The notes under the pieces: generated by a model
Told to the model about the DNA's origin: nothing
Databases searched by the model: none
The model's input: only the letters and a program-made list of their open reading frames with translations
Shown: piece after piece, positions 4,849 to 26,656 of the stretch
Layout of the letters: each line of letters begins with the position of its first letter
Position numbering within the stretch: position 1 is the first letter of the stretch
Assembly (NCBI GenBank): GCA_026005135.1
Contig: BPKM01000001.1
Location: forward strand, 1-64,000
Length of the DNA: 64,000 nucleotides
Source: Leptospiraceae bacterium
GTDB taxonomy: Bacteria > Spirochaetota > Leptospiria > Leptospirales > Leptonemataceae
Reading direction: 5' to 3'
Translations under genes and position numbers: made by a program

Positions 4849-5598
4849 ATGTATTTAAGAATTGTTTTTATTTTTATTGTTATATGTTTTTTTAATCAAA
4901 AGATTTTACCAGAAACAATACAGAAAGGTTTTTTAAATATAAAAAACCAATCTATGATTGATTTAAAAGGAGAATGGGAATTTTATTGGCAGAAATTTTA
5001 TACCTTACAAGAAATTCATCAAATCCAATTTAAAACATATTGTTATGTTCCACATAACTGGATACCCTGTAATCAAGAACATAGTGGGACAGGTTTTGCT
5101 ACTTATTATCTTAAAATTCAAATACCAGATCGATGGTTAAATCAAGAAATTGGTTTATATATACCAACTATTGGAACTTCTTATAAAATATACATTAATG
5201 GAGAATTAAAAGAAGAAGTTGGTAAAGTTTCTAATATAAAATCAAAACAGATACCTTTATATGGAAATCGGATAATTTTATGGAAAGCAGAAAAAACCGA
5301 GCAGGAGATATTAATTCATGTTTCTAATTTTTATCATAAATCTGGTGGATTATGGTATAATATTTCTTTTGGATTAAAAAAAGAAATTGAACATCTATTT
5401 TTTAAAAACCTATTTTTCGATTTAGCTCTCTTTGGTTCTGTTTTTATTATGGCATTATTTCATTTTGGGATATTTATTCAAAAATTTTTATTAAGAAATA
5501 CTAACCAATATAGAAGAAAATATAAATTCAGAACGAAGCATTTTATATTTTTCTATTTTTTGCTTTTTGATTTCTATAAGAATTTTATTTGTAAATAA
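4849..5598 (+). CDS. 7TMR-DISM receptor, N-terminal part (frameshifted from 5567-7366)
   Basis: Signal peptide (residues 1-20), then an extracytoplasmic jelly-roll domain typical of 7TMR-DISM sensors: LKGEWEFYW, a VPHNW motif, GTGFATYYLKI, YINGE and the SNFYHKSGGLW end. A first membrane helix follows near residue 195. The last ~25 residues are out of frame. The following frame, read from about 5505, restores the expected second helix (SILYFSIFCFLISIRIL). A one-base shift in the A-rich segment about 5495-5560 therefore separates this sensor from its 7TM and cytoplasmic half. I read the two as one gene that is disrupted or mis-assembled. Such sensors detect sugars or other small extracellular ligands, but the ligand is unknown here. 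Confidence 0.8.
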   Translation: MYLRIVFIFIVICFFNQKILPETIQKGFLNIKNQSMIDLKGEWEFYWQKFYTLQEIHQIQFKTYCYVPHNWIPCNQEHSGTGFATYYLKIQIPDRWLNQEIGLYIPTIGTSYKIYINGELKEEVGKVSNIKSKQIPLYGNRIILWKAEKTEQEILIHVSNFYHKSGGLWYNISFGLKKEIEHLFFKNLFFDLALFGSVFIMALFHFGIFIQKFLLRNTNQYRRKYKFRTKHFIFFYFLLFDFYKNFICK

Positions 5599-19861: not shown

Positions 19862-20638
19862 TTTAATTGCTTCTATTAATAGGAATAAAGGGAATTCTTT
19901 GCGAGCTCTATTTTCTGCTTTTGCTCTTTTACCTATACTGATTTTGTTGGAACATAATTCCAATAAATTAGATACTAAGAGATTATTTTTTTTTAAGTAT
20001 TCAAAAATTTTTGATAGTGGTCGATGAAACATAATCGTATAATCTTGATCGGTTAATTTATTTTTTTCTTTGATTTTTCCGGGGTGGGTTATAATGGGAA
20101 TATCTAACTCTGACATATACATATCAATTCTTCTATATTGGTTTTTTTTGTTTTCATCAAATTCCCAATGACTTTGTCGAGGAATTCGAAAACAAGGATG
20201 TATTATAATAAAATAAAATTTTCCGTTAGGTTTTAGTAATCGATAAACTTCGTTAAATACTTTATCAATATTTTTCATATTTCCTAAGGACAATATACTT
20301 ACAATATAATCAAATTCATTAGAGTTTAGAAAAGATAAATTTTCAGCATTTCCTACATAATATTGAATATTTTTTGAGGGATATTTTCTTGCTAACTGAA
20401 TTAAATTTTTTGATAAGTCAACTCCAATAACATTTGCTCCTCTTTGACTTAAAATTCTACAAAAAAAACCCTGACCAGATCCCAGATCTAAAATTTTTTT
20501 ATTTTTTACATCACCTAATTCCTGTAATAATGTTGGAACAATAAGTTCTTTATGGTAATAGGAGCCATCTTCTCCTACAATTTTATCATACCATTTAGCC
20601 TGTTCGTCCCATGATGTATCTTTTTTAGTATTTTTCAT
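19853..20638 (-). CDS. class I SAM-dependent methyltransferase
   Basis: A 261-residue protein with the SAM-binding motif LDLGSGQGFFCRIL, the acidic strand VIGVDLSKNL, GNAENL and FDYIVSILSLGNMKNI, all in the order of class I methyltransferases. The RLLKPNGKFYFIIIHPCF motif is also present. The C-terminal part (from about residue 150) is rich in Lys and Ile and carries no recognised substrate domain. The substrate is unknown: it could be a small molecule, lipid or quinone. The upstream neighbour is the acyltransferase part of the GpsA-acyltransferase gene (14-base overlap), so both may belong to the lipid cluster. Confidence 0.8.
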   Translation of the reverse strand: MKNTKKDTSWDEQAKWYDKIVGEDGSYYHKELIVPTLLQELGDVKNKKILDLGSGQGFFCRILSQRGANVIGVDLSKNLIQLARKYPSKNIQYYVGNAENLSFLNSNEFDYIVSILSLGNMKNIDKVFNEVYRLLKPNGKFYFIIIHPCFRIPRQSHWEFDENKKNQYRRIDMYMSELDIPIITHPGKIKEKNKLTDQDYTIMFHRPLSKIFEYLKKNNLLVSNLLELCSNKISIGKRAKAENRARKEFPLFLLIEAIKLI

Positions 20639-22325
20639 ATTTTTTTATATATTCTATATCATCTTCTTTGAATTCTGGTATCATATTACCATAATATTCT
20701 AATAGAGCTGGATTTAATATATCAAAACCTGTCGAAGTTTCTTTTATGACATTTCGTTTTTTTAATAACTTTATTCCTTTTTTGTAAATTTTATTTACAT
20801 TTCTTGTTACCATTTCGCCTGGATAAATTTTTACAAATTCATTTATTTCTTTTAATAATTGTTCTTTATTATCTTTTCCTAAATGTTCATAAAGTAATTT
20901 ACAGATTACAAAATGTTCCTGTACTCTAAAATGATATTTCCATTCTTTTTGAATAATTTTGGCTATTTCTACTGTTGGTTCATCAGATTTTGCAAATTGC
21001 GAAACAAGGATAGGTTTACCAAAATCAAAATAAACCCTTCCTCTTCTATAGCCATACGTAAAAAAACTTGTATCTCTTGCTTGATTTGTAAAATATAAAT
21101 CCTCTGGAACCCATTCATGCGAGATGGTAATAGGTAAAACAGCAATTTCTTTACCTGATTCTCGAAATGCATCAATTGCCGTAGAAAGTAAGCCTGTTTT
21201 GATTTGTTGAAATTTACCATTACGACTTCTTGTTCCTTCTGGATAGGCTAATGCTGGAATACCAGATTCTAACATCATTGTCGTATATTGTGTTAATACT
21301 TCTAAATATAAAATATTGCGTGTATTTTCTCTATCGACTACATAGGCACCTAAGGATCGTAAAAAAGCTCCCCATAAGGGATTAGACATTAATACACTTG
21401 CTGCTGCAGCTCTTGGAATGGGAAAACCTTTAAAATATAAAGCATAAGCTAATTCTACTGAATCTAAATGGGAGCGATGTGTAGGAGCATAAAATACAGG
21501 ATACATTTTTATAATTTTCTTTACTTCTTCTAAATGTCCTCCCACAAAAGGACTAATTGAACCTCTCTGAAATTTACCAAAAATCAATCGAAATGGCATT
21601 ACCAGATATATGATTAATGTTCTGATGGGAGCAAGAAAATAATCAACCATATTGTCAATATAGAACTCTATAATCTTTTCTATATAATATGCTTCTTCTT
21701 CTGGTTTACAATTTTCTAATTTTTTCCATAATTTTATTTCTGTTTCGAAGTTTTTTTGATCTTTTTTTAATTTTTGTCTTCTTGCTTTTTCTATTCTTTT
21801 TTCTAAGGAAGATATAATATGAGGAGCCTGTCTTTTAATTCGATTTTGCATACCTGGAGTAATAGTGATTTTTTTTAATACTCTTTCTTTTAAGACTTTT
21901 GCTATCATTCTACCAGATGCTACTATTTCTACTTTCCCTTTTTTACGTAGTACAGGAATCTTGGAATGTTGAATTTCTTTATCAACTAATAAAGATAAAA
22001 CATCTTCAGGAGAATTTTTTCTTAAGAATATATTATATAAAAGTTTAAATAAAGGTAAATCTAAATTTTTTTCTCTTGCTATTTCTATAATAGGAGAAAT
22101 TGCAAGACCTCCTTCTGCAACGTTCTGACTGGATAATACTTCTTTTTCTATATAATAAGATGGAGTTAAAAACAATTGGATTTGATCTAATAAAGTTGGT
22201 TTATTCGCTCCTTTTAAAAGATTTTCTGTAAATTGTTTTCCATAAGTTCTATTTCTACTATAGGGGACTAAATACAGTAGCCATAAAATCCGAAAGACCA
22301 GATCGACCAAATAATATTTTTTCAC
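20625..22325 (-). CDS. C-terminal part of a GpsA-acyltransferase fusion: glycerol-3-phosphate acyltransferase
   Basis: The first ~115 residues are not acyltransferase. They match the tail of GpsA (YSRNRTYGKQ, VAEGG and IAREKNLDLPLFKLLYNI). After a linker comes an acyltransferase with HRSHLD (H283-D288), PEGTRSR (363-368) and a segment for phosphate binding, plus a membrane segment near 230-250. It therefore looks like the C-terminal half of a protein that both makes glycerol-3-phosphate and acylates it. The first residues up to about 20 are out of frame. The frame joins that of 22258-22752 if one base is removed from the G4 run at 22263-22266 on the plus strand. Confidence 0.8.
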   Translation of the reverse strand: MKKYYLVDLVFRILWLLYLVPYSRNRTYGKQFTENLLKGANKPTLLDQIQLFLTPSYYIEKEVLSSQNVAEGGLAISPIIEIAREKNLDLPLFKLLYNIFLRKNSPEDVLSLLVDKEIQHSKIPVLRKKGKVEIVASGRMIAKVLKERVLKKITITPGMQNRIKRQAPHIISSLEKRIEKARRQKLKKDQKNFETEIKLWKKLENCKPEEEAYYIEKIIEFYIDNMVDYFLAPIRTLIIYLVMPFRLIFGKFQRGSISPFVGGHLEEVKKIIKMYPVFYAPTHRSHLDSVELAYALYFKGFPIPRAAAASVLMSNPLWGAFLRSLGAYVVDRENTRNILYLEVLTQYTTMMLESGIPALAYPEGTRSRNGKFQQIKTGLLSTAIDAFRESGKEIAVLPITISHEWVPEDLYFTNQARDTSFFTYGYRRGRVYFDFGKPILVSQFAKSDEPTVEIAKIIQKEWKYHFRVQEHFVICKLLYEHLGKDNKEQLLKEINEFVKIYPGEMVTRNVNKIYKKGIKLLKKRNVIKETSTGFDILNPALLEYYGNMIPEFKEDDIEYIKKYEKY

Positions 22326-22752
22326 TTGCTCCTAATTCTTTTGCGAATGTTAGCATTTCCATAAATGCTTTAGCACTTAATTCTCCTAATATGCTACTAC
22401 CAACAGAAGGAAGAGAAGAAACCATTCCCTGTAAAATGGCAACAGGATTTTTTAAAATTCCTCCTAATTCTGCAGATAATAAATCATTATGCGAAGAGAA
22501 ATAAATATAAGGTTGATGAAATATAATTTTTAATAAATTATAAAAATCTACGGAGTTTAATGCAATATCAAATAAGATATAATTCTTGTTAATAATATCA
22601 TATAATAAAGAAGGACCTGCCATAACAGCAATGTTACCTTCAATATTATGTTTTTTTTGTAATTTCTGAACCATTTGATGAAATACATAAACACCATATT
22701 TTTTCCTATTATGGAAATTTAAAAAACCTTTTGTAATTAAAACGAAAGTCAT
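22258..22752 (-). CDS. gpsA: middle part of the GpsA-acyltransferase fusion: glycerol-3-phosphate dehydrogenase
   Basis: This fragment covers the middle of NAD(P)-dependent glycerol-3-phosphate dehydrogenase: VLITKGF, GNIAVMAGPSLLYDI (the catalytic-domain entry), ELGGILKNPVAILQGM (with the conserved Lys after GGxLKN) and FGRSGLSDFMATVFSPL. In a normal GpsA, the Arg-Asn segment that binds the phosphate follows directly after SPL, and here it is found in the other frame as YSRNRTYG. It is a frameshifted continuation of 22709-23098 and of 20625-22325, so the true gene spans about 20625-23098. Confidence 0.75.
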   Translation of the reverse strand: MTFVLITKGFLNFHNRKKYGVYVFHQMVQKLQKKHNIEGNIAVMAGPSLLYDIINKNYILFDIALNSVDFYNLLKIIFHQPYIYFSSHNDLLSAELGGILKNPVAILQGMVSSLPSVGSSILGELSAKAFMEMLTFAKELGASEKILFGRSGLSDFMATVFSPL

Positions 22753-23098
22753 ATTGATTTTCTGGATTTAAATTTTCAAATATCATTTCGACAATTTCTT
22801 CAAATTGACGAGAAGGAAGAGCAAATATAATAATAAGAGATTTATCTTTAAAAAAATCGTAACCTGTAACAAATTTTATATTTTTAGGAACGATGAATTC
22901 ATATTGATTTATTTTAATAAGTTTTTCTTTTCTCCATTTACGATACGATAAAGTATCTGGAAACCAAAGATAATATTCATTTAAATTTTTTTCAATAATT
23001 TCGCTAACAGCAAATCCCATTGGTCCCCCACCAATGATCACTACTTCTGAATTTGTTTTAACTACGGGATTCTGTACTGGATTATTTTCTATTACCAT
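22709..23098 (-). CDS. gpsA: N-terminal part of the GpsA-acyltransferase fusion: Rossmann domain
   Basis: The N-terminal nucleotide-binding domain of glycerol-3-phosphate dehydrogenase. It has VVIIGGGPMGFAVSEI (glycine-rich loop) and IIIFALPSRQFEEIVEMI, which matches the V-P-S-x-x-x-R motif before the shift. The last residues after about 113 are out of frame. The join to the next fragment falls in the overlap 22709-22752, where the correct frame begins with VLITKGF. The enzyme reduces dihydroxyacetone phosphate to glycerol-3-phosphate for phospholipid synthesis. The gene starts near a 157-base intergenic region upstream. Confidence 0.75.
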   Translation of the reverse strand: MVIENNPVQNPVVKTNSEVVIIGGGPMGFAVSEIIEKNLNEYYLWFPDTLSYRKWRKEKLIKINQYEFIVPKNIKFVTGYDFFKDKSLIIIFALPSRQFEEIVEMIFENLNPENQYDFRFNYKRFFKFP

Positions 23099-24208: not shown

Positions 24209-24237
24209 TTGACAAAATTTTAAAAATCATTTATATT
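24209..24237 (+). promoter_or_regulatory. near-consensus promoter of the Pup-like operon
   Basis: TTGACA (24209-24214), a 17-base spacer and TATATT (24232-24237) form one of the best promoters in this window. The predicted transcript begins about 20 bases before the AGGAGG site (24255-24260) and the Pup-like start codon, so the leader is short and no riboswitch fits. Strong constitutive expression is inferred. Confidence 0.75.
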
Positions 24238-24265
24238 TGTATTACCAAGGTTTTAGGAGGATATT

Positions 24266-24445
24266 ATGGAAAATTTAGCAAAAAAATATGAGGTTGAATA
24301 CAAAGTTTATCCGGTGGAACCAGTAGAAAAAGAAGAAAGAATCGAAAATAAAGTATCTGAAGTATTCGAAAATATTTATTTTGATGCAAAAAATGAAAAT
24401 GCTAAATTTTTAGAAGATACTAAAGTAGAAGCTGGAGGAGAATAG
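24266..24445 (+). CDS. Pup-like (prokaryotic ubiquitin-like) protein ending in GGE
   Basis: A 59-residue acidic, charged protein with no hydrophobic core or Cys, preceded by AGGAGG at 24255-24260. It ends in Gly-Gly-Glu, the C-terminus used by Pup. A Glu-Asn-Ala tripeptide sits 14-16 residues from the end (ENAKFLEDTKVEAGGE), at exactly the spacing of the Glu-Asn-Ala in mycobacterial Pup. The middle is Glu/Lys-rich and probably disordered. The next gene is a PafA-family ligase, the enzyme that conjugates Pup to lysines. Because the last residue is already Glu, no Dop deamidation step would be needed. The combination makes a Pup-type modifier likely; direct homology needs a profile search. Confidence 0.8.
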   Translation: MENLAKKYEVEYKVYPVEPVEKEERIENKVSEVFENIYFDAKNENAKFLEDTKVEAGGE

Positions 24446-24548
24446 AAAATAAAATTTATTATTTTCTTGATGGATTATATAATCAATTTCTATATATTAC
24501 TTGTAATAAATATGGAGAGAAATCTGGTATTTCAAATTAAAAAAATAT

Positions 24549-26405
24549 ATGGATCAAAACGAGCAAAAAGAAAAAAACTTCAAAAGATATATAGGTTTAG
24601 AAACAGAATATGCAATACGATTTTCTTCGGAACATTCTGAACGTCCAGATAATAGAATCCTGTATGATTTAATTATTAAGATTATACCTTCCTATGTTCG
24701 AATTGCAGAAGGGACATCTATTCTTAAATGGAAACAGATTTTTACAGAAAATGGGAGTGCTTTTTGTTACGAAAGCCTCCCACATCATTTAGAAAGTGGT
24801 TTATTAGAAGCTGCAACACCTGAATGTGAATCTCCATTAGAAGTATTATTATATCAAAAAGCAATCGATCGATTATTAAAAAAGTGCTTAGAAAAATTAA
24901 ATTCTCCTTATAAGAATTCTTATCCCAAATCTACAATTAGTTTGATAAAAAACTGTAAAGATGCTTTTGATAATATTTATGGAGCACAGGAAAATTATTC
25001 TGGATACATTGCTAAAGGAATTTATTTCTTTTTGTATAGAAGTTTTCTTGTATTTTATCTTCCTTTACTTGCTTTTTATATATTAGTAGTATTTTTAGTA
25101 TCGTTTTTAATATTATTTATTCAAAGTATTCTTTTAATTTTTGTATATTTTTTTTATATTATATTTATTTCTTTAAACCAAAAACAAAAAAATAAATATC
25201 AATACGAGGTCTTTGTATTTCCAGCTCATAAAACATTTTTTTATTATTTTGAAAAAATATCCGGAAATCTTTTAACATTTACAGAAATTATATTATCTTT
25301 ACCAATGATTGCACCTTATGTTATTATTTTAAAATATTTGACATTTCGAGATTATAAAAAGCATTTATTACCTTTTTTAATTACGAGAATTATTTATACA
25401 GGTAGTGGAAGCATAAATAAAGATGGAAAATATTATTTATCAGAAAAAGCGATTTTTACCAAAAGAATTGCAAGAACAACGAATTTCCCAGCAGATAGAT
25501 GTATTTATGATCCTGGAAATTTAATGAAGCTTGCTTATCTCAGTGTGCTTTCTTTTTTTAAATTGGAGTTTCATTATTTAAAACAACTTTTTAGTAAAAT
25601 ACAACGTTTTCAGATAGGAATGTCCGATTCCTGTATGTCTGAGGTTTCTGAACTATTAAAAGTTGGACCTATTTATATTTTGATGAATATGATTGATGAA
25701 GGTTTTTTGAAAAATTCTCCTAAAATATCATCGCCTATTCAAATATTAAAGTATATCAATGAATACCCAAATTACAAGAAAACAGCAATTAAAATTAAAA
25801 ATCATACAAATATAGATTTACCACAAAATGTATCTGCTATTGATATTCAGTACTGGTATTTGAATCAGGTAAAAGATTATTTAAAACAAAGAAAAGTTAT
25901 ACAGCCAGAATTTATTATGATTATTCAATTATGGGAAGATGTTTTAAATTCTCTTAAAGAAGAACCAGAGAAATTGTTTGGAAAAATTGATTGGATTACA
26001 AAGCGAATTTTGATGAATCAAGCTATTTTAAAAGAAAAAAGAATGAACTTAAATCATAATAATAATAATATATTAGATGTTGAGCAAATTAATTTAGAAG
26101 ATTATCAAAAATATTATGAATTATTAAAAATCATAGATATTAAATATCATGATATTTATGAGGGTTATTATTCTGAATTAGAAAAAGCTAATTTAACTAA
26201 ACACTTTTTTTCAGAGGAAGAAATTGAAAATGCAATTAAAAATCCACCTCAGAGTAGTTCTTTGGCAAAAATTAGAAGTACTATTATAAGAAAAATGAAT
26301 CAATCATATGATAATATAAAAATTTCCTGGAATTATGTTAGAATAGGGAATGGTGCTGTTTCTAAAATTATTGATTTAAAGGATTATAAAAAAAAGAAGA
26401 ATTGA
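24549..26405 (+). CDS. PafA-family Pup ligase-like protein with a membrane insertion
   Basis: A 618-residue protein with PafA/Dop family signatures in order: GLETE (16-20), TENGS (67-70) followed by AATPEC, KNCKDAFDNIYGAQENY (134-150), LLPFLITRIIYTGSGS, a SDSCMSEVSELLKVG segment (359-373), SAIDIQYWYLNQV, LWEDVL, KIDWITKRIL, YHDIYEG and NPPQSSSLAKIR near residue 566. These match the carboxylate-amine ligase fold that activates the Pup C-terminal Glu with ATP. Residues about 156-272 form an insertion with at least two membrane helices (about 163-186 and 187-208) and perhaps an amphipathic one (241-262). At the expected catalytic Asp (8th residue after the conserved Asn-Gly), the sequence has E75. 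Whether it is a ligase or a Dop-like hydrolase cannot be settled by eye. Confidence 0.85.
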   Translation: MDQNEQKEKNFKRYIGLETEYAIRFSSEHSERPDNRILYDLIIKIIPSYVRIAEGTSILKWKQIFTENGSAFCYESLPHHLESGLLEAATPECESPLEVLLYQKAIDRLLKKCLEKLNSPYKNSYPKSTISLIKNCKDAFDNIYGAQENYSGYIAKGIYFFLYRSFLVFYLPLLAFYILVVFLVSFLILFIQSILLIFVYFFYIIFISLNQKQKNKYQYEVFVFPAHKTFFYYFEKISGNLLTFTEIILSLPMIAPYVIILKYLTFRDYKKHLLPFLITRIIYTGSGSINKDGKYYLSEKAIFTKRIARTTNFPADRCIYDPGNLMKLAYLSVLSFFKLEFHYLKQLFSKIQRFQIGMSDSCMSEVSELLKVGPIYILMNMIDEGFLKNSPKISSPIQILKYINEYPNYKKTAIKIKNHTNIDLPQNVSAIDIQYWYLNQVKDYLKQRKVIQPEFIMIIQLWEDVLNSLKEEPEKLFGKIDWITKRILMNQAILKEKRMNLNHNNNNILDVEQINLEDYQKYYELLKIIDIKYHDIYEGYYSELEKANLTKHFFSEEEIENAIKNPPQSSSLAKIRSTIIRKMNQSYDNIKISWNYVRIGNGAVSKIIDLKDYKKKKN

Positions 26406-26437
26406 CGTCAAAGAGATTTAAATTTTTTTATAAATAT

Positions 26438-26656
26438 ATGCCGTATTATGATTTTGAATGTTTAGATTGTAAAAAAATTTCAACTGTTAAATTATCTGTA
26501 AAAGATATCGAAGAAGGAAAAAAAGTAGAATGTAAATATTGTCATTCTTATAATACGCAAAGATATTTTCAACCTATTGCAGTTAATACAAGTTCGAATA
26601 GTAAAGAGGAATTTCAAGGCTGTGGTGAACATTGTAAATGTTTTCCTAATAATTGA
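26438..26656 (+). CDS. FmdB-type zinc ribbon protein
   Basis: A 72-residue protein with the FmdB signature MPYYDFECLDCKK, a second Cys pair (CKYCH) about 20 residues on, and a Gly-Cys-Gly C-terminal tail (CGEHCKCF). The four cysteines of the two pairs should bind one zinc. FmdB-type ribbons are often regulators or partners of metabolic enzymes, and their roles are poorly known. The start at 26438 is chosen because the family begins MPxYxxxC. It lies 32 bases after the PafA-like gene and 5 bases before the IMPase gene, so it is part of the same operon; any link to pupylation is unknown. Confidence 0.8.
   Translation: MPYYDFECLDCKKISTVKLSVKDIEEGKKVECKYCHSYNTQRYFQPIAVNTSSNSKEEFQGCGEHCKCFPNN

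Follow-up and report, generated by a model that had tools for sequence, protein, structure and literature searches.

Results

The gene pair and its small protein

The window considered here is a stretch of 64,000 nucleotides from a Leptospiraceae bacterium (GenBank assembly GCA_026005135.1, contig BPKM01000001.1, positions 1 to 64,000 of the forward strand). It carries a gene for a small Pup-like protein and, 103 bases downstream on the same (+) strand, a gene for an enzyme of the PafA/Dop family; together they probably form a tagging system that works without a proteasome. An earlier note on this DNA had described a 59-residue open reading frame (ORF) ending in Gly-Gly-Glu (GGE) upstream of a PafA/Dop-family gene. 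Both ORFs were recovered, and the enzyme matched the Pfam family Pup_ligase (PF03136) with 206.4 bits (E 1e-60, cut-off 25). The features of the locus are the following:

24209 to 24237, + strand: candidate sigma-70-type promoter of the pair, TTGACA-17 nucleotides-TATATT (consensus scan, 11 of 12 positions; suggestive only)
24255 to 24260, + strand: Shine-Dalgarno sequence AGGAGG of the modifier gene, read in the sequence, 5 nucleotides before the ATG at 24266
24266 to 24445, + strand: Pup-like modifier gene, an ORF of 59 residues with a Gly-Gly-Glu end
24549 to 26405, + strand: gene of a PafA/Dop-family carboxylate-amine ligase of the membrane type, 618 residues (Pfam Pup_ligase match)
24771 to 24773, + strand: codon of Glu75, aligned with the catalytic Asp64 of PafA (ungapped alignment to 4b0t_A)
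25017 to 25340, + strand: hydrophobic insert, residues 157 to 264, directly after core strand 4 (hydropathy and predicted helices)

Promoter-like matches were not enriched in the region (24, mean of shuffled sequences 22.4).

The C-terminus of the small protein is FLEDTKVEAGGE. The protein fits the description of Pup as a chain of 50 to 90 residues with a C-terminal G[EQ] and a helical core with a tail (Iyer, Burroughs and Aravind 2008, PMC2588565; this paper, PMC7947786 and PMC3511204 are cited from the available parts of their texts). AlphaFold predicted a helix at residues 19 to 43, a second one at 45 to 51 and then the tail, with a predicted local distance difference test score of 80 and a predicted template modelling score of only 0.45. 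A search of solved structures gave weak matches only (E 0.83 and above). No Pfam family matched the protein in a Pfam scan, and its assignment to Pfam Pup or to any model of NCBIfam was rejected, as there was no match. The Pfam Pup family (PF05639) had no match in the genome of the window and none among 35 partner proteins scanned.

The modifier family

In a scan of genome collections for relatives of the ligase 77 distinct loci were kept, among them one of Plesiocystis (L075), and aligned with the window (78 rows). At 50 of the 77 loci an ORF with a shared pattern was found within 500 bases upstream of the ligase match, in 45 cases within 60 bases; 42 of these ORFs end in GGE and 8 in GE. The linked loci belong to Spirochaetota, Myxococcota, Acidobacteriota, Planctomycetota and other phyla. 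The search itself selected for the GE ending, which is hence no result of the pattern count, although the initial search admitted Glu or Gln and the pattern-bearing ORFs end in Glu.

The 51 partners including that of the window share a C-terminal pattern of 30 residues, counted ungapped from the end and given as the commonest letters. Its distal half has Leu at -30, Val/Ile at -27 and -23, Asp at -20, Ala/Ser at -19 and Pro at -15, its tail half Tyr at -12, Leu at -11, Glu/Asp at -9, Thr/Ser at -8, Val at -6 and Pro at -5, followed by x-Gly-Gly-Glu. The modifier of the window retains most of this pattern and deviates at two positions, -12, where it has Phe, and -5, where it has Glu. The Glu-Asn-Ala of this protein, whose distance from the C-terminus the earlier note had taken as a sign of Pup, lies at -16 to -14 and is not conserved in the family; this sign has to be given up.

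A profile was built from 48 upstream partners, two loci of the same genus being excluded. Among 1149 stop-to-stop segments of the window the modifier was ranked first (E 0.0093, next segment 3.8). This result and the upstream partners at 50 of the 77 loci bear out the claim that the small protein is cognate to the enzyme. With the family profile, which includes the modifier of the window, this protein was the sole match in its own genome. When the protein database was searched with a profile and no rule for the tail was applied, 18 proteins reached an E of 0.01 or better, that of the window included; all end in GGE and none has a Pfam domain. As a control, the frequency of GGE-ending ORFs within 500 bases upstream was compared. 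Of 62 ligase loci with sufficient sequence 33 had such an ORF, and of 396 other genes at these loci none had one. Judged by its sequence, the small protein is a member of a recognisable family of putative modifiers outside the Pfam Pup model. The earlier note had proposed a comparison with Pup profiles; the protein is recognised by a profile, namely that of the modifier family, but not by that of Pfam Pup.

At L085, where the relative is distant and only partly matched, an ORF ending in GGQ was seen upstream, around 5373 to 5568. This ORF may represent another type of modifier and was not counted.

The enzyme and its hydrophobic insert

The family motifs as defined by Iyer et al. (2008) are present in the enzyme: GhExE (G16/E18/E20), [HQ]x[NH] (Q147-E-N149) and [QH]x4D (Q355-D360). 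The catalytic Asp, for whose role in PafA see PMC3511204, is Asp64 in PafA of Corynebacterium glutamicum and Asp94 in Dop (Hecht et al. 2020, PMC7947786, Table 1). In the enzyme of the window Glu75 was found instead. Chain 4bjr, with Asn at the place of the catalytic Asp, aligns to Glu75 likewise. Glu occupies this position in all 74 covering rows (of 78, window included) and likewise in each of the 88 homologues aligned. PMC12359232 contains nothing on the catalytic Asp. Covariation of the residue before the catalytic Glu with the tail type (GGE or GE) was considered as well. The two agreed in 50 of 57 rows, but this candidate was rejected, because only 2 independent pairs could be drawn from the tree and they lent it no support.

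The insert is placed after the Q-E-N motif. Its hydropathy peaks lie at residues 158 to 212 and about 241 to 266, and in the structure model it consists of two long helices, 157 to 209 and 230 to 264. A hydrophobic stretch occurs in all 75 covering rows of the 78, with the best 19-residue mean between 1.72 and 3.44. The earlier note had called the enzyme a PafA-type ligase. The assignment to the PafA/Dop family holds; the enzyme is no plain soluble PafA, since its catalytic Asp is exchanged for Glu and it carries the insert, which the note had missed.

Search for the partners of a proteasome system

According to the earlier note no proteasome, Mpa or Dop gene lies in the window. The search of the whole genome extends this statement, with the reservation that, at 94% completeness and 3.7% contamination of the assembly, a gene may have gone undetected. 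The enzyme is the single PF03136 match of the genome, so that neither a second protein of the family nor a Dop deamidase/depupylase was found beside it; one PF03136 protein each was found in all 15 genomes with the membrane type, that of the window included. The only PF00227 protein of the genome is HslV (276 bits, NCBIfam cut-off 137), encoded on another contig. The 20S proteasome beta subunit (TIGR03690) was over the cut-off in none of the 15 membrane-type genomes, but also in none of 14 controls; the negative result rests on low scores, as the five weak matches did not exceed 26.5 bits versus 191.9. Of 7 spirochaete genomes none had a match to Mpa/ARC (TIGR03689) over the cut-off; of 14 controls one had. 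The genome of the window has three matches to this model, in frames of 672, 436 and 840 residues, all under the cut-off, and the best of them is FtsH (857.8 bits as such, cut-off 600).

Distribution and tree

PF03136 was found in 7 of 392 spirochaete genomes sampled. The carriers are all four listed genomes of the genus of the window, two more of the same family and one of another family; 6 of the 22 listed genomes of the same family have the domain. In all seven carriers (the window, G062, G085, G090, G105, G013 and G190) a GGE gene lies upstream. The spirochaete origin assumed in the earlier note agrees with the nearest relative, L009 (Leptospiraceae bacterium SKW199), which belongs to the genus of the window and shares neighbouring genes with it.

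In a quick tree, made with incomplete outgroup pieces and without bootstraps, a branch with support 99 parts the membrane-type enzymes from three canonical PafA/Dop pieces. The genus of the window falls together with Uabimicrobium (L021), and a further three spirochaetes fall together with a myxobacterial sequence. The spirochaete sequences thus stand at two places, yet the supported branches force no more than one change.

Neighbouring genes

In the 30 largest clusters of neighbouring genes at the 78 loci (BLASTP 1e-8, proteins of 60 residues or more), no third gene was found that keeps a constant place across the phyla. These clusters cover at most 8 of the 78 loci; those that cross phyla, an ATP-binding cassette (ABC)-type ATPase at 6 loci and three others at 3 loci each, occur at varying distances and on varying strands. 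The idea of a further conserved gene, for instance the membrane protein reported by Iyer et al., was rejected, as no counterpart stands at a constant place.

The nearest neighbours in the window match polysaccharide deacetylase, zinc ribbon and inositol monophosphatase. The gene of the small zinc-ribbon-like protein (26402 to 26656, + strand) starts just inside the 3' end of the ligase gene, before the stop codon, and belongs to no cluster among the 30 largest. A fusion of glycerol-3-phosphate dehydrogenase and acyltransferase at 20625 to 23098 (- strand) is split into three overlapping ORFs (20625 to 22325, 22258 to 22752 and 22709 to 23098), which looks like two frame breaks; in L009 it is a single frame of 820 residues.

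Discussion

Proposed function

With a rough probability of 0.7, we propose that the pair carries out a kind of pupylation without a proteasome: the enzyme, anchored in the membrane, would tag proteins with the Gly-Gly-Glu modifier. The insert is predicted to hold the enzyme in the membrane. Because the chain re-enters the same catalytic domain after the insert, an even number of membrane crossings is expected; as adenosine triphosphate (ATP) is also needed, the catalytic core would lie at the cytoplasmic face. The terminal Glu of the modifier would be the ready substrate form. Since it is already present, no deamidase would be needed. ATP would phosphorylate the gamma-carboxylate of this Glu, and an amine activated by Glu75 would attack the acyl phosphate, giving an isopeptide bond. 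Lysines of membrane-proximal proteins would be the targets. As no 20S proteasome, Mpa/ARC or second PafA/Dop protein was detected in the genome, the tag would either change the behaviour of the target or pass it to a general protease, e.g. FtsH; of these two, a regulatory use of the tag is favoured.

Several points weigh against this proposal. Neither Pfam Pup (PF05639) nor a Pup model of NCBIfam matches the partner. The scores of the enzyme are far below the equivalog cut-offs of NCBIfam, with 156.3 versus 551.3 bits for PafA (TIGR03686) and 117 versus 492.3 bits for Dop (TIGR03688). The positions separating PafA from Dop (PMC7947786, Table 1) are mixed: with Phe65, Ala89 and the lack of a full Dop-loop the enzyme resembles PafA, with Pro91 and Ser593 it resembles Dop. 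The homologues of Planctomycetes align in part with the Dop-loop (PMC7947786). The fold is slightly nearer to Dop than to PafA. The catalytic Asp is replaced, so the chemistry may differ, and hydropathy together with predicted helices falls short of proof of membrane insertion. The mixed positions and the exchange of Asp to Glu leave doubt on ligation. Nevertheless, family chemistry, motifs and the Glu-ending partner suggest ligation as the most likely activity.

Furthermore, 27 of the 77 loci have no upstream modifier gene, three of them with under 150 bases of upstream sequence. Relatives that keep the ligase without the small gene were named by the earlier note as an observation that would speak against the pair. 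As far as the ligase locus itself is concerned, most cases of this arrangement (19 of the 27) fall into a single clade of the tree, of Rhodopirellula type. Eleven of the 27 genomes were searched whole, with two positive controls, both of which were detected. In seven of the eleven a homologue ending in GE was found elsewhere in the genome (E 2.8e-11, 6.2e-5, 7.1e-5, 0.0012, 0.0041, 0.026 and 0.47; the last two were accepted for C-termini like those of the others), and in the other four the partner was not found. The presence of a partner is common, its linkage to the ligase is not universal, and in some genomes the partner may be absent.

Among the Rhodopirellula-type loci, L108, L110, L111, L112 and L113 have a Pup-like gene apart from the ligase, and in four of these five SNTxxDGE-like tails stand in place of VPxGGE. 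At L073, counted as partnerless, an ORF about 161 bases before the match resembles the modifier family and ends in GAE.

Other explanations

That the enzyme is mainly a hydrolase, a tag remover or a bifunctional enzyme rather than a dedicated ligase would be in line with Pro91 and Ser593, with the fold slightly closer to Dop and with surroundings of the catalytic residue unlike those of PafA. We regard this as unlikely, because the enzyme is the only PafA/Dop homologue found in its genome, as in all 15 genomes, and an enzyme that only removes tags would lack a substrate. Moreover, deamidation is unnecessary with a partner already ending in Glu, and a full Dop-loop is missing. The predicted membrane location and the altered catalytic residue in every covered row could instead point to a non-protein amine as acceptor, e.g. 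the head group of a membrane aminolipid, so that the modifier itself would become membrane-bound. That no dedicated degradation machinery was found and that no third gene keeps a constant place would fit such a reaction as well. The studied members PafA and Dop, however, act on lysine conjugates, and no sequence feature indicates a lipid, which makes this acceptor quite improbable. The same low probability is given to a widespread membrane conjugation system that stands apart from PafA/Dop, with Glu as base, one enzyme per genome and possibly an aminolipid target, as an analogue of Atg8 lipidation and not a tag for degradation.

Bacteria with pupylation genes but no proteasome genes are known, in which the proteasomal ATPase is retained (PMC3511204). 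The pair could accordingly be a degenerate remnant of a full Pup-proteasome system after loss of the proteasome. For the window this seems very improbable: no Mpa/ARC above the cut-off was found, the branch with support 99 sets the membrane type apart, and this type has its own insert, Glu and modifier family. The enzyme is also under constraint, with nonsynonymous divergence (dN) of 0.20 versus synonymous divergence (dS) of 1.8 between window and L009. Finally, the small ORF might have arisen by chance next to an enzyme with another substrate. It has no Pfam match, is only 48% identical to its nearest relative and gives weak evidence of constraint (dN 0.42, dS 0.69, 56 codons). With the GGE neighbour at 33 of 62 ligases versus 0 of 396 control genes and the same C-terminal pattern across phyla, a chance ORF is hardly credible.

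Accounts of pupylation seldom leave out the proteasome. The two-gene form described here, for which no proteasome, unfoldase or deamidase was detected and whose enzyme is predicted to lie in the membrane, recurs across several phyla and retains an active-site residue of its own. If tagging by the membrane-anchored enzyme works as proposed, the tagging of proteins with small proteins in bacteria would be wider than proteasomal degradation and could be studied with two genes. The question of the targets of a membrane-bound Pup ligase, raised in 2008, is now testable with a defined partner, a catalytic residue and the carriers Plesiocystis pacifica and Rhodopirellula baltica.

Comparison with known systems

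The YbdK-type carboxylate-amine ligases (1r8g, 1tt4) are similar to the enzyme at a level far below that of PafA/Dop. To our knowledge, a small partner gene is no part of this family. With the actinobacterial Pup-proteasome system the pair shares the fold, the ATP and metal motifs and a small modifier ending in Gly-Gly-Glu. It differs from this system in the catalytic Glu, the hydrophobic insert, a modifier outside Pfam Pup, and in that no 20S proteasome, Mpa/ARC or Dop was detected.

Single-copy PafA/Dop homologues of Planctomycetes, with 29 to 31% identity to PafA and Dop, were used as outgroup by Hecht et al. (2020). They resemble the membrane type in having one copy per genome. A word search of the main text gave no hit for 'transmembrane', 'spiroch' or 'myxo', and the available part names no modifier partner for these homologues.

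Closest is the type described by Iyer et al. (2008), who reported Pup and membrane-type Pup ligases in Plesiocystis and Rhodopirellula without linkage to a proteasome and suggested pupylation of membrane proteins. As in the window, a Pup-like gene with a G[EQ] end is adjacent, the insertion follows core strand 4 and no proteasome genes are linked. Iyer et al. reported four transmembrane segments and a linked gene for a membrane protein, whereas the model of the window enzyme has two long helices and the pair has no counterpart of that gene at a constant place. The exchange of Asp to Glu noted here is not mentioned in the available part of their paper. The earlier note knew of no description in spirochaetes, and indeed none was among the literature matches listed, nor was an experiment on the membrane type (most subscription papers were outside the search); the kind as such was already described in Plesiocystis and Rhodopirellula. 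The range now includes Spirochaetota and other phyla. Thus, the pair is a spirochaete case of the proteasome-free membrane variant sketched from sequence in 2008. To that sketch are added here the range, the pattern of the modifier, the single copy in 15 of 15 genomes, the catalytic Glu and the finding that no third gene keeps a constant place.
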